Source: a virus. From it: a DNA stretch of 24,318 nt. This document shows positions 3,457 to 24,288 of the stretch, piece after piece. A model generated the notes under the pieces. That model was given only the letters and a program-made list of their open reading frames with translations, was not told the origin of the DNA and made no database searches. The stretch is from positions 1 to 24,318 of IMG/VR virus record IMGVR_UViG_3300008261_000155, one strand, 5' to 3'. Numbering within the stretch: position 1 is the stretch's first letter; every line of letters begins with the position of its first letter. The position numbers and the translations under genes are program-made.

Positions 3457-3490
3457 AAAACTCTCGGCAATGTCGAGAGTTTTTTATTTT
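3457..3490 (+). terminator. Rho-independent terminator after nrdBA
   Basis: A perfect inverted repeat pairs AAAACTCTCG (3457-3466) with CGAGAGTTTT (3474-3483) around the 7-base loop GCAATGT. It is followed by a T-rich run (3480-3490, six Ts, A, four Ts). The stem holds the only GC-rich patch in the neighbourhood. It separates the nucleotide-metabolism pair from the baseplate genes. The A-rich/T-rich flanks make it partly symmetrical, so it could work in both directions, although no opposing gene is seen. Confidence 0.9.
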
Positions 3491-3535
3491 ATAACGTTAT
3501 ACAAAAAATTTATAACGACATTATATTTATGTTAT
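3484..3535 (+). promoter_or_regulatory. Putative promoter/operator region before the baseplate genes
   Basis: This short AT-rich gap follows the terminator and precedes a run of about 20 kb of same-strand structural genes, so a promoter is expected here. It contains the perfect 10-bp palindrome ATAACGTTAT (3491-3500). It also has a 9-nt direct repeat TTTATAACG at 3488-3496 and 3509-3517, spaced 21 bp start to start, which is about two helical turns. No Bacteroidota sigma-A type TAnnTTTG box and no exact T4-type TATAAATA box is found. Its role as a promoter is inferred from position and structure only. Confidence 0.45.
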
Positions 3536-3994
3536 ATGGCAGAAGGATTAACATATGGTATTAATTTTCCCTTTAGGGATTCGTATGATGGTAAATATCT
3601 TGATTTATCAAACACGAATAGGGAAGAGATACGTTCAAATCTAATTCATTTATTACTAACAAGAAAAGGTACTCGATATTATTTACCTGATTTTGGTACA
3701 AGATTGTATGAGTATTTATTTGAACCATTAGATGGACCAACTTTTTCACAAATAGAATCTGAAATTAGGGATTCTGTTAAAGAATATATTCCCGGTATTA
3801 CAATTACTAAATTAGAGGTAACACCAGCGTCAGAGGGTGAGGAAGATAAAGGAACGTTTGTTAATGGTAATGATGAACGAGTTTTTAGAGTACCTGGTAT
3901 TGGAACAAAAGAACACACTGCAAAAATTAAAATTGATTACTTGTTAAACGATGACGCGTTCAACTCAAGTGATTTTGTTATTATAAATTTATAA
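3536..3994 (+). CDS. Baseplate wedge protein, gp25/GPW family
   Basis: This 152-aa protein is a gp25-type wedge component (T4 gp25, P2 W, Afp9), which links the baseplate to the sheath and seeds sheath assembly. The family signature sits at residues 41-64: a basic RKGTRYYLPDFGTRLYEYLF block in which the R-x(4)-P-x-FG core is typical. The start is set at ATG 3536 (MAEGLTYG). An in-frame ATG at 3470 would begin inside the terminator loop and add 22 residues that look like translated non-coding DNA. An acidic insertion (GEEDKG...NGNDE, about residues 100-116) sits in the C-terminal half, making the protein slightly longer than T4 gp25 (about 132 aa). The next gene starts one base after the stop codon. 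The family call is firm. Confidence 0.9.
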   Translation: MAEGLTYGINFPFRDSYDGKYLDLSNTNREEIRSNLIHLLLTRKGTRYYLPDFGTRLYEYLFEPLDGPTFSQIESEIRDSVKEYIPGITITKLEVTPASEGEEDKGTFVNGNDERVFRVPGIGTKEHTAKIKIDYLLNDDAFNSSDFVIINL

Positions 3995-3995
3995 T

Positions 3996-5834
3996 ATGGC
4001 TAATAAAAAGATTTCGTATACTACAAGAGATTTTCAGTCAATAAGAACTGAGTTAATTAATTTTACAAGAACGTATTACCCCGATTTAATTGAGAACGTA
4101 AATGATGCTGCGATTTTCTCGGTGTTTTTAGATTTGAATGCCGCGGTTACGGATAATCTACATTTCAACATTGATAGAAGTATTCAGGAAACGGTATTAC
4201 AATATGCTCAACAAAGGTCTTCAATATATAATATAGCAAGAACCTATGGTTTAAAAATACCGGGTCAAAGACCTTCAGTTGCCTTAGTTGATTTGTCAAT
4301 AACAGTTCCTGCTTACGGAGATAAGGAAGATTTAAGATACTGTGGTATATTAAGACGAGGTTCTCAGGTAAATGGTGCTGGACAAGCTTTTGAGACTGTA
4401 TATGATATTGATTTTGCATCACCGATTAGTGGGGATGGTTTTCCTAATCGTTTAAAAATCCCTAATTTTGACTCGAACAATAAGTTAATTAATTATACTA
4501 TAGTTAAAAGAGAAACCGTAGTTAATGGTGTTACAAAGGTTTTTAAAAAGGTAATAACACCTAACGATGTTAAACCTTTCTATGAAGTGTTTTTACCTGA
4601 CAAAAATGTTTTAGGTGTGACAAGTGTATTATTAAAAGATGGTACACAATACGGTAATGTTCCTTCAAACCAAGAGTTCTTAGGTTTAGATAATAGATGG
4701 TATGAAGTTAAAGCGTTAGCTGAAGATAGAGTATTTGTTGAAGACCCAACTAAAGTTTCGGATAGTCCTGGTATTAAAGTTGGTAAATATCTGTCGGTAA
4801 CTAATAAATTTATTAGTGAATTCACACCTGAAGGTTATTTTAAAATGACATTTGGTGGTGGTAGTCAATCCGCTGACGAACAATTAAGAGAGTTTGCTAG
4901 AAACGGGTATAATCTAAATTTATACAAATATTCAAATAACTTCGCATTAGGTAGTACATTAAAATCAAATACAACACTATTCGTTCAGTATAGAGTTGGT
5001 GGAGGTCAAGTTAGTAACTTGGGTGTTAATGTTATAACACAAATTGGTACAGTATCGTTTTTTGTTAACGGACCATCTGAGTCAGTAAACACGAATGTTG
5101 TTAACTCATTGTCTTGTAATAACGTAACTGCCGCGATTGGTGGGGCTGATTACCCAACAATAGAAGAAGTTAGAAACTTAGTTGGGTTTAACTTCTCGGC
5201 TCAAAACAGAGCTGTTACGGTTAACGATTATGACTCTTTAATTAGAACAATGCCATCACAATTCGGTGCTCCTGCTAAAGTCGCAATTACTGAAGAAAAC
5301 AACAAAATTATTATTAAAATGTTATCATACGATGAGAATGGTAAGTTAACTGAAATTGTTTCAGATACGTTAAAAAACAATGTTGCTAATTATCTATCTA
5401 ACTATCGAATGATGAATGACTACATATCGGTTCAGGTTGCGAATGTTATAGATTTATCTTTCACTATTGATGTTGTTTTGGAAAGTAGTCAAAACCAAGG
5501 TTCATTAATTAGTCAAGTAATTAATATTGTATCTGATTATTTCGAACCGGGTAATAGACAAATGGGTGAGAATGTTAATGTGTCTGAAATTAGAAGATTA
5601 ATACAAGCAACTAATGGTGTTGTAAGTGTTGCGGGTATATCCGTATTTAATAAAGTTGGGGGTCAATATTCGTCATCTCAAACGTCTCAAAGATATCTTG
5701 ATAAAGATACAAGAGAGATTGAATTAATTGATGAAACTATATTTGCAGAACCAAGTCAAACATACCAAATTAGATATCCTGGTAATGACATTAACATCCG
5801 AGTTAAGAATCTATCAGCAACTAATTTTAGTTGA
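3996..5834 (+). CDS. Baseplate wedge protein, T4 gp6 / Baseplate_J-like
   Basis: This 612-aa protein matches the T4 gp6 group, which forms the ring of wedge dimers around the baseplate hub and belongs to the wider P2 J / Afp11 family. The N-terminus carries the typical pattern of a YTTRDFQSIRTEL segment, a TRTYYPDLIENVNDAAIF segment and a DLNAAVTDNLHFNIDR segment (residues 8-63). The family's Baseplate_J-like core follows, with GGADYPTIEEVRNLVGFNF and a YDSLIRTMPSQFG segment in the second half (roughly residues 380-425). The length is close to T4 gp6 (660 aa). It directly follows the gp25-like gene, as J follows W in P2. It is probably assembled in the host cytoplasm with the gp25-like protein. 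No defects are seen. Confidence 0.88.
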   Translation: MANKKISYTTRDFQSIRTELINFTRTYYPDLIENVNDAAIFSVFLDLNAAVTDNLHFNIDRSIQETVLQYAQQRSSIYNIARTYGLKIPGQRPSVALVDLSITVPAYGDKEDLRYCGILRRGSQVNGAGQAFETVYDIDFASPISGDGFPNRLKIPNFDSNNKLINYTIVKRETVVNGVTKVFKKVITPNDVKPFYEVFLPDKNVLGVTSVLLKDGTQYGNVPSNQEFLGLDNRWYEVKALAEDRVFVEDPTKVSDSPGIKVGKYLSVTNKFISEFTPEGYFKMTFGGGSQSADEQLREFARNGYNLNLYKYSNNFALGSTLKSNTTLFVQYRVGGGQVSNLGVNVITQIGTVSFFVNGPSESVNTNVVNSLSCNNVTAAIGGADYPTIEEVRNLVGFNFSAQNRAVTVNDYDSLIRTMPSQFGAPAKVAITEENNKIIIKMLSYDENGKLTEIVSDTLKNNVANYLSNYRMMNDYISVQVANVIDLSFTIDVVLESSQNQGSLISQVINIVSDYFEPGNRQMGENVNVSEIRRLIQATNGVVSVAGISVFNKVGGQYSSSQTSQRYLDKDTREIELIDETIFAEPSQTYQIRYPGNDINIRVKNLSATNFS

Positions 5835-14278: not shown

Positions 14279-15487
14279 ATGGAAGAAAGAATATTTCATT
14301 ATAGAATAACCCCTGAAGTTATTAAGAACGATTTGTTCTTAGTGAATTATACGGGTAACAGTGATACAACAAACGCTGAGTATGTTTATTGTTGTGACAT
14401 TTACACAAGTGCGGTGACTAAATATTTTAGTGGTCAAACGTACGCTTATTCATCAATGACACAAATTTTGTCAGGTGGGTCCTTCAATACGAAAACAAAA
14501 GAGTATAATTCAATTCTAACAGGTCTGACAATACCTATCTTTATTACTGAGAATACAACCGATATTGGTATATATTCAGTTTTTGATGGGATGGTATTGC
14601 AACAAGAAACGATGACTAATTTTTTATTTTCCGCCACAACCACAAATCCAAATACCTATTATTTTTATAATACCTCAGACACTGAATTTAAAAAATATTT
14701 GTCATTTTCGGAATATAAGGTAGATTGGGGTGATGGTTCACCTCCGATGACGGTTAATAGTGTTTTACCGAATAATTACACTCACACGTATACACAACAA
14801 GGTCAATTTACCATTACAATGTCAGGTATGAGTCCTTGGGGTGTAAATTTAATAACGAAAGATGTAACAGTACCATACAGTGCTGTGACAATAACAAATC
14901 CAAAAGGGATTGCTCATTTTATACCAGCTGGTGGTAGTTGGTCGGGAACACCTTTGAGTTATGATTATATATTCAGTGGGGATTCTGTGTGTGATGTTGA
15001 ATTACAAACTAGTGGAAACTTTACAACTATACCATTTAAAATATCAGGTTACACTAATTCAACGATGAATGACTTGGAGGTTTACGGTAGTAAGTTTAAT
15101 CCGTCATTGTTTGATGGACGATTTAAAATGGGAATTCAAATTACTGCGGATACTAACACAATTGGGACATTTCACGGACCATCAGGTGATGGTTTATATA
15201 CTGCGTACACGATTAACGACATTAAATATTTTGATTATTTTGATGGAACAACTGTTTTTATCGTTGAATCTTCAGGTATAACATCAGATATGATAGTTTG
15301 TTCGGGTATAACAAAAAATGAGTTATTACTTAATGTTATTGACGAACCCGTTACACAGTCGGATATATTTATCGAAAGAGGTAAACAATCAGGTCTTGAG
15401 GCTTTAATGAGAATGGGTGAGGTGGATAATGTGGGTGACCTCGAAAAATATGGTTATGGATTTTTTAAAGTTAATGAAATCCAATAA
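14279..15487 (+). CDS. PKD-domain structural/fibre-like protein (402 aa)
   Basis: This 402-aa protein contains a PKD-type Ig-like domain at about residues 112-200. It is recognised from VDWGDGSP (148-155) and the closing YTHTYTQQGQFTITM strand pair (167-181). Such domains are common in secreted Bacteroidota proteins and in phage tails as spacers or carbohydrate-contact modules. The part after it is Gly/Thr/Ser-rich and fibre-like (GTFHGPSGDGLYTAYTIND, about 300-318). The last 35 residues form a charged, probably helical tail (IERGKQSGLEALMRMGEVDN), which looks like an attachment or oligomerisation element. It sits between two other structural genes with a two-base gap upstream. It may be a peripheral baseplate or short-tail-fibre protein. 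The PKD call is firm; the role is inferred. Confidence 0.75.
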   Translation: MEERIFHYRITPEVIKNDLFLVNYTGNSDTTNAEYVYCCDIYTSAVTKYFSGQTYAYSSMTQILSGGSFNTKTKEYNSILTGLTIPIFITENTTDIGIYSVFDGMVLQQETMTNFLFSATTTNPNTYYFYNTSDTEFKKYLSFSEYKVDWGDGSPPMTVNSVLPNNYTHTYTQQGQFTITMSGMSPWGVNLITKDVTVPYSAVTITNPKGIAHFIPAGGSWSGTPLSYDYIFSGDSVCDVELQTSGNFTTIPFKISGYTNSTMNDLEVYGSKFNPSLFDGRFKMGIQITADTNTIGTFHGPSGDGLYTAYTINDIKYFDYFDGTTVFIVESSGITSDMIVCSGITKNELLLNVIDEPVTQSDIFIERGKQSGLEALMRMGEVDNVGDLEKYGYGFFKVNEIQ

Positions 15488-15526: not shown

Positions 15527-16435
15527 ATGGCAACAGGAACGTATGGAACAATAAGACCGGCTGATGTATCACCTGAAGATGTTGATATAATTTTAAATTA
15601 TACACCATCTAGGGATGAAACGGATAATTTTGTATTAACTAAGTTAGATTCTACTGCGGTATTAAGACCTTATTTTCATAATAATGAAACTGGGGGTAAT
15701 AATAGCGTTGAAATTTTAGGTGGTTTATATAATCTAAGATTACCAGCGGAACAGTTTAATAAGATAGGTATATATACCTTATTTATTAGACCTGCTGAAA
15801 TAAGAACACAAATTTTAGATTGTGGGGTGTTATCGGCATTACCAAATGTTAGGGGTATTATATTTGATTTAAATCAAGTTCCTTCGGCATATCGAAATAA
15901 ATTTGTAACTCAAGGATTGGTTGGGTTTAGAGTTGAATATTTAAATTCTGACGGTACTAAAATACCTAATTTTTTTAGGTTAATTACCTCATCATTTTAT
16001 TGTGAGCCGGTGATTGATAATTTAACCAACACATCACAAAAATCAATACGATATAGATACACCGATACTGTAACTAACATTATGTTCTGTACTCTATCAC
16101 CGTCAACGTCACCTACTAACAGACCAACATCAATACCATATATCGGACAACCGAATCAAAATGTAATTATTTCAAATACGTTTTTCAACCCTGTTACATT
16201 GGATGTTGAAATTGCGGAACACGATTTCTCAACATTGGCTATCGCTCTATTCGGTAATCAAACTAAGTCTATGGATGATGGTATTTACACGATGTACGAC
16301 AATAATAACAACATTTACAGACAATACAACTTATACGAAATTAGAGACCAATTTAATAAATTATTATATGAAGTTAGACAAGATAGAAATGATAATATTG
16401 ATTTCAGTAAAAACTTCACAAATATAACACAATAA
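15527..16435 (+). CDS. Conserved phage structural protein, function unknown (302 aa)
   Basis: This 302-aa protein opens with a distinctive block (MATGTYGTIRPADVSPEDVD) and a further block around residues 70-125 (GGLYNLRLPAEQF, then IGIYTLFIRPAEIRT and CGVLSALPNVRGIIFD). It has a regular beta-rich pattern with few cysteines and no membrane segment or signal peptide. I recall this type of sequence from uncultured aquatic phages but cannot attach a function. The last 60 residues are rich in Tyr, Asn and Asp and probably helical (YNLYEIRDQFNKLLYEVRQD). Its stop codon overlaps the start of the 1024-aa gene (TAATG), so the two are probably translationally coupled and their products may bind each other. 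A baseplate or tail-tip role is inferred from context only. Confidence 0.78.
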   Translation: MATGTYGTIRPADVSPEDVDIILNYTPSRDETDNFVLTKLDSTAVLRPYFHNNETGGNNSVEILGGLYNLRLPAEQFNKIGIYTLFIRPAEIRTQILDCGVLSALPNVRGIIFDLNQVPSAYRNKFVTQGLVGFRVEYLNSDGTKIPNFFRLITSSFYCEPVIDNLTNTSQKSIRYRYTDTVTNIMFCTLSPSTSPTNRPTSIPYIGQPNQNVIISNTFFNPVTLDVEIAEHDFSTLAIALFGNQTKSMDDGIYTMYDNNNNIYRQYNLYEIRDQFNKLLYEVRQDRNDNIDFSKNFTNITQ

Positions 16436-19400
16436 TGGCGATTAAAAAATATACTTGTCCCCCTACACCGGCTTCAGGTGCTGGTACATTCTCTGACGAT
16501 TTAGTTGGATTCCAATTAGTACAGGGTGGTGGATTAACGCAGGGTAATTTTAATTTTGTAACATCAATAACTGAAAAGAATAACCGTAACTTTATTACGG
16601 GAACATTTTCAGAACCAATAAATTTAACTAATTTAGGTATTGCTGATATTGCTCAATCAAAACAAGTATTTGAGAATAACTTTAAAGTTTACCCTAATTT
16701 TGATTTAAGTCAGGTTACGAATTTTACATTGTATGGTTCTTTAACTAAAAGAATTTCCGTGTCAGTTCAAAAAATAATTAGTTATTTCCCTGCGGCGATT
16801 GAGTCAACATTTGTTGGGGTTAATTATGTTACAGGTAAAACTGCTAATAACATACTTTATAATAAGTTAAACGATACAACAACATTTGACTTAGATATTA
16901 CAAGATTACGAAATCAATTTGATATTGATTTTACGAATGACTCAACAAGAAACTTAGAGTTGAGAGAAATACCTGTATCACCATTAAGAAATTTAACTGT
17001 TGAGTATAGTAGGTATGTTATGTATTACCAAAACGAGGTGTATGACATTATCTATATTCAATCAACTAACTCTTTAACCACCGGAACTTTAACGGTGTCA
17101 GTTAGTGGTAAACCATTTGGTGATAATACTGAAGTTTTTCAGAATATAGTTATTAGACCTAATGATTATGAGGTAAGTAAAGTTTTTAATGAGAATTTTG
17201 ATGAGGTTGAGAAATTCTTATTAAATAGACAGAGTAATCCTATATATACAAGTAATTTTACAGTTCCTGTTGAAAATGACGATGGTACTTACATTTCAAC
17301 TAAACAAAAATTGACTTGGCCTTTAAATGGTTCTTGGAATATTGATATTATGACAGGTTCGTTTAATCTATATTTGGAACGATTAAATGAAATAGTAGAA
17401 AACATTGATGGATATAAAACAAATTTAATATCAAGATTTTTAACTACAGGTTCATTTAAAGAGTTTGATACTATAGGGCAAAAAACTGAAAAGACGTTAC
17501 AAATATACGGTAGAAGTTTTGATGAAACTAAGAAATTTATAGACGCTTTGGCGTATATGAATTCGGTAAATTATAATATTGGTAATGACATACCGTCACA
17601 ATTACTTAAAAATTTAGCCCAAACATTAGGCTGGAATACAAATATTTCACCAATAACTAAAGATGATTTCTTAAAGTCGGTATTTGGTGAAAAAAATCAC
17701 GATAAATCTCAATTTTCGGGAACTAAAACTGAGTTAACACCGGATGAACTAAATTATCAATATTTTAGAAATTTAATTTTAAATTCGGCGTATTTGTTTA
17801 AATCAAAAGGTACACGTAAATCGGTTGAAACTTTAATGAGGTTGATTGGTGCTCCTGATGCTTTAGTTGAATTTAATGAATATGTTTACTTAGCTGATAG
17901 ACCAATTAATTTACGCCAATTTAATTCACAATACGCTCAAATTTCAGGGGGTACTTATGTGGAAGAAAAAATTGTTTTGGATGCTAATGACGTGTTTACA
18001 TTTCAGGGTGTGACATATACAGGGTTTACCACGGAGTTTTCAGTTAAGGATGTTTCATTAACAAGAAGTGAATTTCCAATGGATGATTATGGATATCCTA
18101 TGGCTCCTGATGACAGTGAAAGTTATTATTTCCAAATTGGTAGTGGATGGTTCGAACAAACTCCATCACATAGAGCACCCGAAGAGGTTAGTATAACAAG
18201 TAGTACATTTGTTGGTACTAACCCTAATTATCAAACAAGTTTAATACCTTATACTTACGGTCAAGTTTATCTTAATAGATTTAGAAGATTCCCATTTATG
18301 TCATTAGGTTATAATTTAACTAAAACTATTGATAATAATAAAAGTTGGGTGATTAATGAAGTTGGAACTAGAGCTAATTTAGATGGTGGTTATAATTCGA
18401 AATATATTGTTGATGATGAAAAATTAGTATTGAATGTTAAGAATATTGATTTACATATGAATCCTGCTCAAGGTTTGGTTTATGATGTGTGGTATATGTC
18501 AAGAGAGGTGAATTATCCGATACCAAATGAGGGGTTATTCTACGTGGCACCAACACACTGTGACCCAACACCGTATTCGACCAATATTATGAAAATGAGT
18601 AACACTCAGTTTACTGCTTCATTTCCAAACGTACAATATCCAATGAGAGGTGGTGTGGATTGGACTGAAATTGACCCAAAACCAAAGAGACAAACGTTTT
18701 TTGAATTTGCTCAATCATTTTGGAAGAATATGATTAACGTTAGAAATAGACAATATATGTCTAACGGTAAGTCAATGGGTTACCCAACTTTAGAGTCAAT
18801 TTATTGGAAATATCTACTATCTGAACAGGCTATTGGTGTTGAAAACAATAATTTCACATATGATACTATGATACAATATGTGAATGGTTTGGGTGACTAT
18901 TGGATTAGGTTGGTAGAACAAATGATACCGGCATCCACAATTTGGAACACAGGTGTTAAATATGAAAACTCGGTTTTCCATAGACAAAAACACGCTTGGA
19001 GGAGACAGAGAGGGTGTCAAATTGTTCCTGTACCTTGTAAACCTTGTTCTACGGTTAGTAACTTTTTACCAATTGATTGTCCTATCCAAAGTGTTGAATG
19101 TCCTATATATCCGTCAGGAACAAGTGCAACAATTACATCGTTTTCAGGTATTTTAGGTAAAGTAATTACCGATTATTTAACATCAATTGATAAAACTGCG
19201 GACAATTGTAATTTAAATGCACTTCAAACTGAATGGTTTGTTGACTTACGATTAAATGACTCTATTATAGTACAAAATAAGTTTTTTAATGGGTCGGGTT
19301 ATAACGTATCGGCATTCAGTTCACCGACTAATACTCAATGGTATAATGCTTTAGTTATTGCATTAGATGATTTAGGAACTAAAGGTTATGATTATACTTT

Positions 19401-19509
19401 AACCAATGATGGTAAAGTGGTTATTTATAATTCAATATGTTCTGAAGATGGTCAGGGTTTGAGGTTTAGAATTAATGTCGGAATAAATTTAAATTTATGT
19501 TGTAATTAA
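16435..19509 (+). CDS. Large baseplate protein with P2 gpI-like segment (1024 aa)
   Basis: This 1024-aa protein is probably a large wedge component. Around residues 390-485 it has an SQLLKNLAQTLGWNTN segment and YLFKSKGTRKSVETLMRLIG (453-472), resembling the helical KGT element of P2 gpI-type tail proteins. These relate to Afp12 and part of T4 gp7, so it may be the gp7/gpI counterpart. The N-terminal 350 residues are beta-rich. Near residue 850 a basic run (KHAWRRQRGC) leads into a cysteine-proline stretch, with C at the end of that run followed by CKPC, DCP and ECP motifs (about 860-890), a plausible zinc-binding or disulfide-linked knot. A small C-terminal domain ends in LCCN. The gene is coupled by TAATG overlaps at both ends. 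Baseplate identity is moderately supported; the exact counterpart is uncertain. Confidence 0.75.
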   Translation: MAIKKYTCPPTPASGAGTFSDDLVGFQLVQGGGLTQGNFNFVTSITEKNNRNFITGTFSEPINLTNLGIADIAQSKQVFENNFKVYPNFDLSQVTNFTLYGSLTKRISVSVQKIISYFPAAIESTFVGVNYVTGKTANNILYNKLNDTTTFDLDITRLRNQFDIDFTNDSTRNLELREIPVSPLRNLTVEYSRYVMYYQNEVYDIIYIQSTNSLTTGTLTVSVSGKPFGDNTEVFQNIVIRPNDYEVSKVFNENFDEVEKFLLNRQSNPIYTSNFTVPVENDDGTYISTKQKLTWPLNGSWNIDIMTGSFNLYLERLNEIVENIDGYKTNLISRFLTTGSFKEFDTIGQKTEKTLQIYGRSFDETKKFIDALAYMNSVNYNIGNDIPSQLLKNLAQTLGWNTNISPITKDDFLKSVFGEKNHDKSQFSGTKTELTPDELNYQYFRNLILNSAYLFKSKGTRKSVETLMRLIGAPDALVEFNEYVYLADRPINLRQFNSQYAQISGGTYVEEKIVLDANDVFTFQGVTYTGFTTEFSVKDVSLTRSEFPMDDYGYPMAPDDSESYYFQIGSGWFEQTPSHRAPEEVSITSSTFVGTNPNYQTSLIPYTYGQVYLNRFRRFPFMSLGYNLTKTIDNNKSWVINEVGTRANLDGGYNSKYIVDDEKLVLNVKNIDLHMNPAQGLVYDVWYMSREVNYPIPNEGLFYVAPTHCDPTPYSTNIMKMSNTQFTASFPNVQYPMRGGVDWTEIDPKPKRQTFFEFAQSFWKNMINVRNRQYMSNGKSMGYPTLESIYWKYLLSEQAIGVENNNFTYDTMIQYVNGLGDYWIRLVEQMIPASTIWNTGVKYENSVFHRQKHAWRRQRGCQIVPVPCKPCSTVSNFLPIDCPIQSVECPIYPSGTSATITSFSGILGKVITDYLTSIDKTADNCNLNALQTEWFVDLRLNDSIIVQNKFFNGSGYNVSAFSSPTNTQWYNALVIALDDLGTKGYDYTLTNDGKVVIYNSICSEDGQGLRFRINVGINLNLCCN

Positions 19510-21227
19510 TGAGTTGTACTTTAGCATATAGTCTTTCAGGAATAACAGGTGATTGTAGTAATCTTAGTGGGGGTTCATTCACGATAACGATTACGGGTAG
19601 TGCACCTACTTACTCAATTGAGTGGTTATTCCCATTTAGTAATACTGTTTTATTAGGGCCTGGTGTCAGTGCATATACCGAAACGGGTTTAACTGCGGGA
19701 ACGTACAACTTTAATATTGTTGATAGTTGTATTACCCCAAATAATACCAAGGTCTTAGCCTCAATTTATATTTCGAGTGGGTTGTGTTCAACAATTACCG
19801 GTGTAACAAATACCGTCTGTCATTTAGATAATGGTTCATTATCGGCCACTACACAATATGATTATGGTAGTAATTTATACTTATTATATCACTCAACTTT
19901 AGGGTATATCACATCAGGAACCACCAATTTAAATTCAGGTCGTTCATTTGATAATTTGTCCGCGGGAACGTATTATATTAAAGTTATTGATAGTGGAGGA
20001 TGTACCGCAACTACAAATAGTGTAATTATACAAGATTCAACAAATTTAGATTATGAATTATTTGTAGTTAATGACGCGGGTTGTAACGTTAATTCGGGTA
20101 AAATTTTTATTAATAATATTAATGGTACACCGCCTTACACTTATTTATGGTCTAATGGTGAAACAACATCGTCAATAAGTGGGTTAACTTCTGGGTCTTA
20201 TAGTGTAACTGTTAGTGATAATTCAGGATGTGTTGTTAATAAGACTGCTGAAGTATTAAAAGTTCCTTTAGTCGGACAAGCGGGTGTTTTTGTTACTCAA
20301 CCGGCTTGTTTTGGTAGTAATGGTTCAATTGGTATTGTACTTTCAGGTGGGACTCCACCATTTTTTTATTCAGGGTCAAACGGAACAACTTCGGTTACTT
20401 TCGATAGAGATATTAGTTTTTTTGGGTTAGGTGCGGGTACGTTCACTTATTTCATTCAAGATGCTGGTTTATGTTCGTTTACAGGTGATGTTACGTTAAT
20501 AACACCATCATCGTTTAACATAGTGTCAATAACAACGACCAATTCTCAGTGTGGTAATAATCAAGGGTCAATAAATGTTAACGTTTCAAACGGAAGTCAA
20601 CCATATGTTTATTCAATAGTTAACTCAACTGGTGTTGAAAGTTCTATTAGTACGACATTACCAACATACAGTTTTACACAATTAGCATCAGATACTTATA
20701 CGTTTTCAATAACTGACAATAGTGGGTGTGAATATACTAATCAATACACAATTTTAAATGAGGAAGTTTTTACTTTTGATTTTGATGTCACGGGTACTAC
20801 TTGTTCTAAAAATAATGGTATTGTTAAAATTGACGTTGTTGGAGGTACAGGTCCATATATATATGAACTGAATGGTGAAAGTCAACAAACTAATTTAACT
20901 ACGGCGACTTTTGGTTCGTTACCTTCAGGTAGTTATACCGTGAACGTTACTGACACAGGTGAAAATTGTATCCAATCTTCAACTTTGTTTGTTACTACCT
21001 CAGATGGTGTTGATTTTATTTATAATTCAGGTAATCCTACTTTATCTAATGGTGGATTTATTGAATTATTCATAACTACGGGTAAAGCACCTTACACAAT
21101 TGAGTGGAGTGACAACGTTAATGGTCAAACAGGTTTACTTGTCACAGAATTGTCCGCAGGAACTTATACTGTTAAAGTGACTGATAATAATGGTTGTTTT
21201 AAAATTAAAACAATAATACTTGTTGGG
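19509..21227 (+). repeat. Seven tandem SprB-like protein repeats
   Basis: Approximate residue borders of the repeats are 1-90, 91-177, 178-252, 253-333, 334-418, 419-500 and 501-573. Each runs from a Cys-x-x-x-NG/SG turn and a first strand, through a G-x-x-P-Y/F turn, to a G-S/T-Y-x-V/I-x-V/I-x-D close, usually followed by a GC pair. The first repeat is the most diverged, and the seventh lacks the leading cysteine. The DNA copies have diverged strongly, so this is an old duplication rather than a recent expansion. Confidence 0.85.
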
Positions 21228-22526
21228 GTTAGTTGTAGTGTTACTTATAGTTTATATAATTTATGTGATGATGACTTTACTAATAATGGTGAATTATTAG
21301 AAAAAACACCGTTATTAATGTTAAATGAGGGTTATGCTGATTTAATAACCAATGAAGAAAATTGTATTTTAAATGAAGCGATTTTTCAAGCAATCACGAT
21401 TGTTGGTGGTGTTAGTGCAACCTCAATATTTTATACAAGTACATCGTTGACTGATGCGCCAAGTGAAACGTTATTCGCAACTACTGTTAGAAATTTATTA
21501 TTGACTTATGAAGGTATTGGTAATGTTGCGATAAATACTAACACTAATAAAATTACAATAACTTCTGATTGTGGGTCTGAAGTTAGTTTATTAGATTCTG
21601 ATATTTCAGTTAATTTAAAAATTAATTACGATATATCTTGTGCTTGTAGTAAGAGTTGTAATCCGTATGAATTTGTTGGTAGAATTGATTTTATGGATGA
21701 TGAATACAATGTACCAACACATCAAGAACTAACATCATTTGGGTCACCTAATTGTTTGTGTGACTATACAAGTAAGGAAAATGTTCAATTGTCATATACT
21801 AACGCAATTAATGCGGATTCAATTGTATCAATGACTCGTGAAGGTTTATTTACATTTACACAAGAATCGGTGAATTATGCGTTAAATTTATATAGTGGTT
21901 TTTGTGGTGGTGATGTTGGGTTTAATGAACCGACAGTTGATTATATTAAAGGACACTCATTTCCTGGTAACTTTTTCTTTAAAGGTCGACCTTTAAAAAT
22001 TAGAGGTTATAGAAATATTAAAGCGTCTCAAACTGAAGGTTGGTATACTAGTTCTGTTGGGTCAATTTTATCGGCGTATACTGACGATATACGATATATT
22101 AGGGCGGTTAGTGATGTTGGTGATTTACCACTTACAGGACAACCCGGTGACATTATTAATGTTGGAACGGTAACTTCATCAGTTGGTTATGCTTGGAATC
22201 CGGTTACTAGTAGTTGGTCAACATCATTTTTTGATGATATTGATAATTATGTTTTGGTTGAGATTAGACAAAAAAGAGATGCGATGATTGAAGCTAAAAA
22301 TCAAATGGTGTTAGCTATGAAACCATTTACTTGGTCGAATAATTATATGTTATTACATTCTATTAGACGTTGGGTATTTACTAATACACCACTTCAGACA
22401 GGTAATGAAATTATTGAAAATAATGGTGCTGATTTACCTTGTGGTTATTCTCAGAATTTAAATGATTGTGGTAGTCTTGACCCATTCTGTGGACCTAATA
22501 AACAAGACGATAATGATTTATGTTAA
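19509..22526 (+). CDS. SprB-repeat tail/adhesin protein (1005 aa)
   Basis: The first 573 residues are seven tandem SprB-like repeats of about 75-90 residues each, a module known from gliding adhesins of Flavobacterium and other Bacteroidota surface proteins. The clearest is the third (GTPPYTYLWSNGETTSSISG, 206-225), with closing strands such as AGTYTVKVTDNNGC (550-563). There is no signal peptide and no type IX sorting domain, so it is not a secreted host adhesin. Its place right after a baseplate gene (TAATG overlap) makes it a virion protein. Residues 574-1005 are non-repeat and Cys-rich. They include a VGDLP-type phage-tail beta module (869-903) closing on SSW, a coiled, basic helix (EIRQKRDAMIEAKNQM) and a C-terminal cluster of four cysteines. 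It is a likely host-binding fibre or tail spike, which is inferred from domains and position. Confidence 0.82.
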   Translation: MSCTLAYSLSGITGDCSNLSGGSFTITITGSAPTYSIEWLFPFSNTVLLGPGVSAYTETGLTAGTYNFNIVDSCITPNNTKVLASIYISSGLCSTITGVTNTVCHLDNGSLSATTQYDYGSNLYLLYHSTLGYITSGTTNLNSGRSFDNLSAGTYYIKVIDSGGCTATTNSVIIQDSTNLDYELFVVNDAGCNVNSGKIFINNINGTPPYTYLWSNGETTSSISGLTSGSYSVTVSDNSGCVVNKTAEVLKVPLVGQAGVFVTQPACFGSNGSIGIVLSGGTPPFFYSGSNGTTSVTFDRDISFFGLGAGTFTYFIQDAGLCSFTGDVTLITPSSFNIVSITTTNSQCGNNQGSINVNVSNGSQPYVYSIVNSTGVESSISTTLPTYSFTQLASDTYTFSITDNSGCEYTNQYTILNEEVFTFDFDVTGTTCSKNNGIVKIDVVGGTGPYIYELNGESQQTNLTTATFGSLPSGSYTVNVTDTGENCIQSSTLFVTTSDGVDFIYNSGNPTLSNGGFIELFITTGKAPYTIEWSDNVNGQTGLLVTELSAGTYTVKVTDNNGCFKIKTIILVGVSCSVTYSLYNLCDDDFTNNGELLEKTPLLMLNEGYADLITNEENCILNEAIFQAITIVGGVSATSIFYTSTSLTDAPSETLFATTVRNLLLTYEGIGNVAINTNTNKITITSDCGSEVSLLDSDISVNLKINYDISCACSKSCNPYEFVGRIDFMDDEYNVPTHQELTSFGSPNCLCDYTSKENVQLSYTNAINADSIVSMTREGLFTFTQESVNYALNLYSGFCGGDVGFNEPTVDYIKGHSFPGNFFFKGRPLKIRGYRNIKASQTEGWYTSSVGSILSAYTDDIRYIRAVSDVGDLPLTGQPGDIINVGTVTSSVGYAWNPVTSSWSTSFFDDIDNYVLVEIRQKRDAMIEAKNQMVLAMKPFTWSNNYMLLHSIRRWVFTNTPLQTGNEIIENNGADLPCGYSQNLNDCGSLDPFCGPNKQDDNDLC

Positions 22527-22537
22527 TATTTTAAGTT

Positions 22538-23233
22538 ATGTATTTTTTTGATATAATGGATTATTACTTATTTGCGGGTAATTCGTGGCTCGAAACAGGT
22601 AATGCTGGTGGGATAGTTGGTTGTGGTGGAGGACCATTACCTACGGATTGGGCTGATTTTTTCGGAACCGCACTTGCGACTCGTGATGCGTTTTATAAGG
22701 GTACTTATCAATGGTTTATTACTTCAGCCAGTTCAGGTTATACTGAAAATTTGGACCAAGGTTGTTCTCCAGCATATTTGGATTTGTGGGTTAATATGAT
22801 TGAAAAACAAATTGAATATGAAAAGTATTTTTTTATTTTGGTTAAAACTATATATTTGTTTAGATTAAATTATGACTATAGTTTACCAAATCAGTCATCA
22901 TATCCGACATATGAAGATTATTTTGAGTTTGCTTACAATTACAGTCCTTGGAGTCAACAAACAGGTACAACAACAGACACAAGAAATATGGTAATTAATC
23001 CTTTTCCACCTATTCAATTTAGTGCGGTTAGTGTTACTTATGATTTTGGGACATCATTTGAAAATTCGGATTTAGAAACATTAGTTACTAATTATGACAC
23101 GGCAATGAAAGAATATATGTGTTCAATTAAAAATATGTGGTCAGTTATTGATGGTGATACTTTTGACGAATTATGGGTTGATGATGATGGAAACTTTATT
23201 CCGAATTCAGGAACAACTTATTGTTTACTATAA
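22538..23233 (+). CDS. Probable tail/receptor-binding accessory protein, paralog of next gene (231 aa)
   Basis: This 231-aa protein has no recognised catalytic domain. It starts MYFFDIMDYY and closes with a VIDGDTFDEL segment (203-212). Both ends match those of the next gene (MYFFDFYDYC and CVDGDTF), while the middles differ, so the two are paralogs or share assembly ends. The middle has a Gly-rich loop (GIVGCGGGPLPTDW, 25-38), a Trp-rich stretch and helical segments rich in aromatic residues (about 82-112). It lies 11 bases after the SprB-repeat gene, in the place where tail-fibre or fibre-assembly genes usually sit. It may be a tip protein or a chaperone for the repeat protein. The ATG at 22538 is supported by the matching start of the neighbour. 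Confidence 0.7.
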   Translation: MYFFDIMDYYLFAGNSWLETGNAGGIVGCGGGPLPTDWADFFGTALATRDAFYKGTYQWFITSASSGYTENLDQGCSPAYLDLWVNMIEKQIEYEKYFFILVKTIYLFRLNYDYSLPNQSSYPTYEDYFEFAYNYSPWSQQTGTTTDTRNMVINPFPPIQFSAVSVTYDFGTSFENSDLETLVTNYDTAMKEYMCSIKNMWSVIDGDTFDELWVDDDGNFIPNSGTTYCLL

Positions 23234-23253
23234 ATTTTAAAGAGATTTGATTT
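23234..23253 (+). promoter_or_regulatory. Leader with TTTTAAAGAGAT motif
   Basis: The 20-base gap between the paralogous genes contains TTTTAAAGAGATTTGATTT directly before ATG. It closely resembles the leader of the gene at 15527 (TTTAAAAGAGATTAAATA). The AAAGAGAT part sits about 8 bases before the start codon and may act as a weak ribosome binding site. Confidence 0.4.
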
Positions 23254-24288
23254 ATGTATTTTTTTGATTTTTATGATTATTGTTACCAACGAGTTATTGG
23301 GTCTAACTCCGAAAATATATTTATAACTCCGGTTGGTGGTGTTTGGTCGGATATGGAATCAACATATAGGTACAGTGTAGGTGCTTTATTGAAATCAGTC
23401 GGTCAATGGTATGATATGTCTAATGCTGAAACAATTACGTATCAGTATAACCCAAGTGTTAATTTGAGTTGGCCATCAAATACTAATGATTATAATTTGT
23501 ATAGTGGTCCTTGGACATTTACAGGTTCGTATGGTGATGATGGTCACACACTTAACCCAATTGTTTTAGATACTGTATTTGAAATGAATAATGTTCCGTC
23601 GTCAAATCTTTATATTGGTAGTAATGGTTATATTACGTTAGGTAGTGGTGATTCGAGCCGTTTAACAGTACCAAGTGTAGGTCCACCGGCTACAATATGT
23701 GGAAATCCGGGTGACAATTGGTTAAACGCTGGAGCTCAATCTAATAGTGATGGTGATATTCAAAATGCTTGGTATCGAACAGGTGCTGATGGAAGTGGGA
23801 AATATTATGTTAAAATATTGGTTTATAGTGGAACTTACAACGCAATCACAACACCAACTTCTTGGATTGGTAATTTATATAGAGATAGTCAATATCAATG
23901 GTTTGAGTCTAGAGCTAAATCAAACCTAAGAGGTAATGCGGGTCCTTTTAATGCGACTAGTGTTGCTCAACCCTCATCAACAACAAGTAGAGTTTGGAGA
24001 GGTGATTTAAACGGTCAAAATTGGGTTTATATGGGTACGGGTAGTGTTACAACAACAAGAACTTGTCCTGAATGTGAAACTTATTACACCCAATTTACGG
24101 CAACAACATTGAGTATTTCATCATTTTGGGATGATGCTGATAATAATTTTGTGAATACAACTCAGGCGGATTTCACAACCTACGTTCAAAATATGTATCA
24201 CCAACAATGTTTATTAAAACAATTATTAAAATGTGTTGATGGTGACACGTTTCCTACTTTTACTAATTTAACGTTTAATAATTACTAA
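23254..24288 (+). CDS. Probable receptor-binding tail protein with beta-sandwich module (344 aa)
   Basis: This 344-aa protein is framed by the same ends as its upstream neighbour: MYFFDFYDYC at the start and CVDGDTF (327-333) near the end. Between them is a beta-sandwich module with SNLYIGSNGYITLGSG (117-132) and a TGADGSGKYYVKILVYSGTY segment (176-195). This is the GSNxYITFG-type pattern that I associate with phage tail and adhesin domains facing the host surface. A C-x2-C pair (TCPEC, 270-274) precedes the C-terminal helical part. It is most likely a host-recognition component whose middle has been swapped in on a conserved scaffold. The leader TTTTAAAGAGAT lies just before its ATG and resembles that of the gene at 15527. 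The function is inferred. Confidence 0.72.
   Translation: MYFFDFYDYCYQRVIGSNSENIFITPVGGVWSDMESTYRYSVGALLKSVGQWYDMSNAETITYQYNPSVNLSWPSNTNDYNLYSGPWTFTGSYGDDGHTLNPIVLDTVFEMNNVPSSNLYIGSNGYITLGSGDSSRLTVPSVGPPATICGNPGDNWLNAGAQSNSDGDIQNAWYRTGADGSGKYYVKILVYSGTYNAITTPTSWIGNLYRDSQYQWFESRAKSNLRGNAGPFNATSVAQPSSTTSRVWRGDLNGQNWVYMGTGSVTTTRTCPECETYYTQFTATTLSISSFWDDADNNFVNTTQADFTTYVQNMYHQQCLLKQLLKCVDGDTFPTFTNLTFNNY

Follow-up and report, generated by a model that had tools for sequence, protein, structure and literature searches.

How does a protein built on the repeats of gliding adhesins come to be encoded in a phage tail gene cluster, and what would it do there? The question is raised by a gene close to the end of a 24,318-nucleotide stretch of viral DNA (IMG/VR record IMGVR_UViG_3300008261_000155, positions 1 to 24,318; the window), for which an earlier note, made from the letters alone, had claimed seven SprB-like repeats at 19509-21227. 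The gene and its repeats are located as follows.

19509..22526, + strand: whole gene of the SprB-array protein, stop codon included (1005 aa)
19509..21227, + strand: seven SprB-type beta-sandwich repeats (residues 1-573), from PF13573, a family HMM, the AlphaFold2 (AF2) model and constancy in relatives
19509-19784, + strand: repeat D1 of the SprB-array protein
19785-20045, + strand: repeat D2 of the same protein
20046-20267, + strand: repeat D3 of the same protein
20268-20510, + strand: repeat D4 of the same protein
20511-20762, + strand: repeat D5 of the same protein
20763-21005, + strand: repeat D6 of the same protein
21006-21227, + strand: repeat D7 of the same protein

The seven repeats are borne out, and occupy exactly residues 1-573. 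The Pfam family PF13573 (SprB), which the note had named for checking this region, matches the 1005-aa protein significantly (E 2.1e-21, 75.7 bits against a cut-off of 28) in six stretches; a genome search with the same family gave 6 sites, 3 of them above the single-domain cut-off. The seventh repeat (residues 93-179) is missed by Pfam and was recovered by an HMM built from the family, which counts seven, and by AlphaFold. The predicted structure of the full protein contains seven beta-sandwiches in residues 1-573, with pLDDT values of about 75-90, followed by a mixed alpha/beta domain and a poorly predicted tail. The 432 residues beyond the repeats divide into a conserved domain (574-711) and a tail (712-1005) that is unlike it and varies. 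Six of the seven phage repeats contain a pair of cysteines, one near the start of the repeat and one after a VTD motif, which is invariant (57/57); the paired cysteines may form disulfides.

The SprB-type gliding adhesins of Bacteroidota have PF13573 repeats and a cysteine pair per repeat in common with the phage protein, the pair being present in 12/13 and 12/23 of the host repeats examined. In other respects the two differ. The host adhesins L105 and L106 (Saprospiraceae) have T9SS CTDs and 12 and 15 Pfam repeats, respectively, whereas in the phage protein the repeats number seven and a T9SS domain is lacking; one sampled host genome encodes a long run of near-identical repeats, whereas the phage repeats are divergent and fixed in position. 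The absence of a type IX sorting domain, noted earlier, is upheld, and that of a signal peptide, likewise noted, is probable. In the 1005-aa protein, neither CHU_C nor Por_Secre_tail is found above the Pfam cut-off, while the same scan is positive in the controls L105, L106 and LR756502.1. A Por_Secre_tail match of 18.4 bits (cut-off 27) lies within repeat 7 and was rejected as a T9SS CTD. No signal peptide is visible by eye at the amino-terminus (MSCTLAYSLSGITGDCSN), and the array begins at residue 1-3. The BACON domain (PF13004) is absent among the Pfam matches with E up to 1.

The surroundings of the gene identify the type of phage. The window contains genes for NrdB, NrdA and gp25-like and gp6-like proteins, and then large genes without family matches.

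3470..3994, + strand: gp25-like baseplate wedge protein (phrog_261, E 9.2e-19)
3996..5834, + strand: gp6-like baseplate wedge protein (phrog_219, E 9.7e-21)
22538..23233, + strand: 231-aa virion-cluster gene of the MYFFD family, downstream of the SprB gene
23254..24288, + strand: 344-aa virion-cluster gene of the MYFFD family, downstream of the SprB gene

The gp25-like gene identifies the cluster as the baseplate operon of a myovirus, and the gp25 and gp6 homologues, together with the conserved gene order, support the virion-gene setting that had been assumed. The cluster recurs in a relative, G003 (173.7 kb), which also encodes a capsid protein of the T4 gp23 type. G003 further contains a 3795-aa ORF (C1:64714-76101), probably a fibre gene, and minus-strand genes of 879, 722 and 743 aa, some starting alike, which are probably further fibre genes. 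Flavobacterium phage immuto is among those with a relative of the gp6-like protein; for the cluster genes beyond gp6, HMM searches in regions of immuto, Mel-JY01 and LR756508 gave no match. The two genes at 22538-24288 share the MYFFD start and a C-terminal DGDTF motif, and are members of a virion-cluster family of paralogues whose middle part varies. A conserved 402-aa virion-cluster protein at 14279-15487 has a weak PKD match (E 0.003, below the cut-off).

The phages nearest in NrdA are those of Cellulophaga and Tenacibaculum (40-41% identity) and a 642-kb uncultured phage (42%), the next group being at 29%. A Shine-Dalgarno motif precedes 2 of the 116 genes of G003, against 5% by chance, and A-rich leaders are present instead. 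A scarcity of Shine-Dalgarno motifs, with A-rich leaders in their place, is expected for Bacteroidota. The NrdA affinities and the scarcity of Shine-Dalgarno motifs thus point to Bacteroidota as the host phylum. SprB repeats are present in 20 of the 99 Bacteroidota genomes surveyed, so the repeat alone names no host family.

The gene directly upstream is here called the partner.

16435..19509, + strand: partner gene of the virion/baseplate region (1024 aa), immediately upstream in all of the family; no family match
19090..19506, + strand: homologue of D8 that forms the C-terminal domain of the partner (residues about 886-1024)
21228..21641, + strand: linker and conserved alpha/beta domain D8 of the SprB-array protein (residues 574-711, ending in YDISC), from HHalign and the order of elements in the AF2 model

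The SprB gene starts with the final base of the partner ORF (1024 aa, 16435-19509), and this one-base overlap is found in 78 of 82 related loci. The overlap described in the earlier note is borne out; the neighbour, there called a baseplate gene, matches no baseplate family by sequence, and that label comes from context, i.e. the gp25 and gp6 homologues at 3470-5834. Searches with the partner found no match in Pfam (E up to 1) or among PDB sequences, nothing meaningful in PHROG and no homologues in the phage isolate collection. The AF2 model of the partner has a mean pLDDT of 50 and is good at the C-terminal domain; Foldseek and VIA searches with this model gave nothing reliable. A KGT motif, presumably a sign of gpI/gp7, raised an initial suspicion about its identity; a gpI/gp7-type baseplate wedge is unsupported by any sequence or fold search. 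The C-terminal domain shows a weak fold likeness (Z 4.0-4.8) to T4 gp11, the short-tail-fibre interface protein, and to other tail proteins, with Z under the confidence level and unrelated chains scoring similarly. In L031, L032, L035 and L061 the partner is longer (1119 aa versus about 1005-1024), and it has a variable stretch at residues ~705-736.

The region 600-711 of D8 aligns with the C-terminus of the partner in HHalign with a probability of 95.9 and a score of 56. Twenty column-shuffled controls reached at most 19.4 and other windows of either protein at most 23; since one comparison alone yields only rough HHalign E-values, these controls weigh more. The match was first seen by eye and had a probability of 0.6 with shallow alignments, becoming clear only with about 56 sequences. 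In the AF2 model, D8 is composed of a helix (601-612), strands (617-632 and 635-644), a second helix (653-665) and three further strands (670-676, 681-686 and 699-712), and the order of helices and strands is identical in the model of the partner C-terminal domain. No other ORF family of the fetched loci has a D8-type domain. The list from a fold search with the whole SprB-protein model was filled by matches to the repeats.

Two IMG/VR searches yielded about 160 loci with the partner and SprB gene pair. Relatives are encoded in 231 stretches found by a profile search of viral contigs, and the 80 best loci were used; a second set of 80 loci was fetched by the partner protein of one member alone, a few contigs being common to both sets. 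In the latter set, two contigs end too early, and the SprB-array protein is directly downstream in 77 of the 78 readable loci. The remaining locus is truncated by the contig end; its N-terminal module matches, at 95-96% identity, the modules of L167 and L168, where the array follows. The SprB gene of L098 (7965-10214) is broken into two ORFs, while it is whole in the close relative L097, which suggests a frameshift or an assembly error.

The array itself hardly varies in layout. Across 58 non-redundant orthologues, residues 1-700 have at most 4% gaps per block, and seven repeats are found in 61 of the 66 complete proteins of the partner-only set, with six detected in the other five. In 139 of 140 cases a repeat is closest to its positional counterpart in another phage; repeats of different phages are 44-58% identical at the same position and 30% at different positions. 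The same-position likeness and the constant count indicate that the array arose once, with no expansion, contraction or shuffling visible since. In sequence, the repeat region evolves faster than the partner, with mean pairwise identities of 50% and 67%, respectively. One or two SprB-type repeats also occur in further downstream proteins in 59 of 82 loci (e.g., L009:12230-12598), making the repeat a general building block of these phages.

Variation of another kind begins where D8 ends.

21642..22523, + strand: variable C-terminal tail module (residues 712-1005), from the drop in conservation; absent in the close relatives L009-L011

Conservation collapses directly past the YDISC motif (residues 707-711). 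Of 146 proteins reaching this motif, 80 end no more than ten residues later and 59 have tails of more than 60 aa. BLAST sorts the tails into 12 or more unrelated families, and in the non-redundant set about half open with a Pro/Thr-rich linker. The modules recognised are DUF285/BspA-like LRR (4/33), Fib_succ_major, a partial beta-propeller and partial PKD matches; some reappear in other cluster genes with up to about 78% identity. Among the closest relatives, whose partners are 93-96% identical, the tail is nevertheless present in L007 and absent in L009, where the 231-aa MYFFD gene is missing along with it. Searching 15 contigs, some of them fragments, for a diversity-generating retroelement behind the variable tails revealed no reverse transcriptase.

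In 12 members (L167, L168, L169, L173-L176, L178-L181 and L185) a Pro/Thr-linked module is located at the N-terminus instead, and none of these 12 has a C-terminal tail. The scaffold thus bears one module at a time, at either end. These members make a simple model with an anchored N-terminus and a distal C-terminus insufficient, and weaken the idea that the C-terminus is always distal. The suggestion that the array, lacking a preceding anchor, is attached through the non-repeat C-terminal half holds in part. One part of that half fits: residues 600-711 share a domain with the neighbouring protein. The other does not, as residues 712-1005 are variable and missing in many relatives, and are more likely cargo than anchor.

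We consider it probable that the protein is a fixed-length arm at the baseplate of T4-like phages of Bacteroidota, with an SprB scaffold, D8 as its dock and swapped binding tips. The gene would encode a conserved tail arm present in the virion, in which the seven repeats form a rigid spacer of constant length; judged from the size of Ig domains, such a rod would measure very roughly 25-30 nm. D8 may dock alongside the matching domain of the partner, or both domains may sit on a common partner, as their homology suggests; either way the arm would be held at the baseplate region. The swapped modules, i.e. LRR, Fib_succ_major, beta-propeller-like and further types without family matches, often on flexible Pro/Thr links, would be adhesive or receptor-binding tips. 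From the domain types and their variability, a receptor role of the tips is probable. The SprB repeats would chiefly serve as scaffold and were probably acquired long ago from the stock of host adhesins. The option of a repeat spacer taken from the host, one of several raised in the earlier note, is supported; the array is constant in number and behaves as a structural part.

The nearest precedent comes from crAss-like phages and their BACON domains. The tail-gene neighbourhood of these phages encodes such domains in a stable tandem array, with eight in crAssphage; the C-terminus of the proteins is poorly conserved, and a host-binding role has been proposed, with none proved (PMC6949934). These are likewise phages of Bacteroidota, using an Ig-like domain family common to host surface proteins. 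The system described here differs in having the SprB repeat rather than PF13004, in belonging to T4-like myoviruses rather than crAss-like phages, in the locking of the array to a partner gene that shares D8, and in the swapping of modules at a fixed boundary, at either end. It appears to be a second, independent case beside the crAssphage BACON array in which tail parts of Bacteroidota phages come from a host-surface domain family: in ~160 environmental loci, a repeat of gliding adhesins is now a fixed structural component encoded among the phage tail genes. The clear boundary at which probable binding modules are exchanged provides a testable map of host-range determinants in uncultured Bacteroidota phages.

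Database entries contain at least one apparent member of the family. UniProt A0A6J5LD72 (uncultured Caudovirales, 714 aa) is 34% identical over the match, with a Foldseek E-value of 7e-64, and looks like a phage SprB-array protein automatically labelled 'SprB repeat'; A0A6J5LDA4 is also an 'SprB repeat' protein of an uncultured Caudovirales phage. We found no publication on these two entries or on SprB arrays in phage tails, in the largely non-subscription literature searched. The top PDB fold match of the repeat rod is GhpA, the Aureispira grappling hook (PDB 9flp, 9fly and 9flw; Foldseek E 1e-19, 15-17% identity). It is likewise a multi-domain protein from the Bacteroidota, but a cellular one of thousands of residues. 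In VIA-align it is level with fibronectin rods (Z about 10) and there is no PDB sequence match, so only the fold type is shared.

An ordinary tail fibre with a host-type repeat shaft, in which D8 links to the following fibre protein as a hinge and is not a baseplate dock, is possible but unlikely. A conserved part with a variable end is typical of fibres, more SprB-type and MYFFD genes lie downstream, and tail modules recur in cluster genes; D8, however, is homologous to the upstream partner and not to the downstream proteins.

It is distinctly unlikely that the repeats are a host-binding surface, which would recognise the same glycans or partners as gliding adhesins or grip adhesin filaments, so that host contacts are used or competed for. 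The repeats are true members of the SprB family, six of them with the invariant host-typical cysteine pair, and SprB and RemA may be phage receptors, according to a 2026 paper (PMC13288928). The motif WSxNVNGQTG of D7, invariant in the phage family, is present in two Saprospiraceae SprB adhesins, although this pattern was a search seed, so that selection partly accounts for finding it there; in 98 other sampled Bacteroidota genomes the exact pattern is absent. The somewhat faster evolution of the array compared with the partner would also be compatible with a degree of surface contact by the repeats. Against this, the number and order of the repeats are frozen and the variability to be expected of a receptor-binding part lies in modules outside the array, which leaves the earlier proposal that the repeats imitate host adhesin contacts, or compete with them, unsupported. 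Moreover, the host array belongs to a T9SS-secreted surface adhesin, and the same repeat need not mean the same ligand.

A neck whisker or a capsid-decoration fibre, i.e. a fibritin or Hoc-like Ig protein that is not part of the baseplate, seems quite improbable. Weak matches were obtained to RB43-type fibritin whiskers (E 4e-4), to a neck whisker chain and Ig-like decoration proteins, and to PHROG 26672 ('virion structural protein') and the Hoc-like PHROG 3945. They span only one to three repeats, for which a general Ig-like resemblance suffices, and the gene is situated within the gp25/gp6 cluster, locked to the neighbour that shares D8.

We give very little weight to the idea that the arm is a working mimic of SprB, with repeats (notably the D7 motif) engaging the moving adhesin system of the host or the ligands of its adhesins; if so, the particle might be carried along by, or settle on, gliding cells, with the swapped tips setting the strain range. 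A non-virion protein, made during infection and displayed on the host surface or released into the medium like SprB adhesins, is barely credible: one host-like protein, combining 13 SprB repeats with PKD and a T9SS signal domain (CHU_C), is encoded in the 642-kb uncultured phage, but the protein studied here has neither a CTD nor a visible signal peptide, Pfam finds no T9SS domain in 33 tails at E 0.01, and the gene is embedded in a baseplate operon. The host-like SprB adhesin of the 642-kb phage (LR756502.1; L013:12711-17720) is 1670 aa long and has an apparent signal peptide, and looks made for secretion by the host T9SS.
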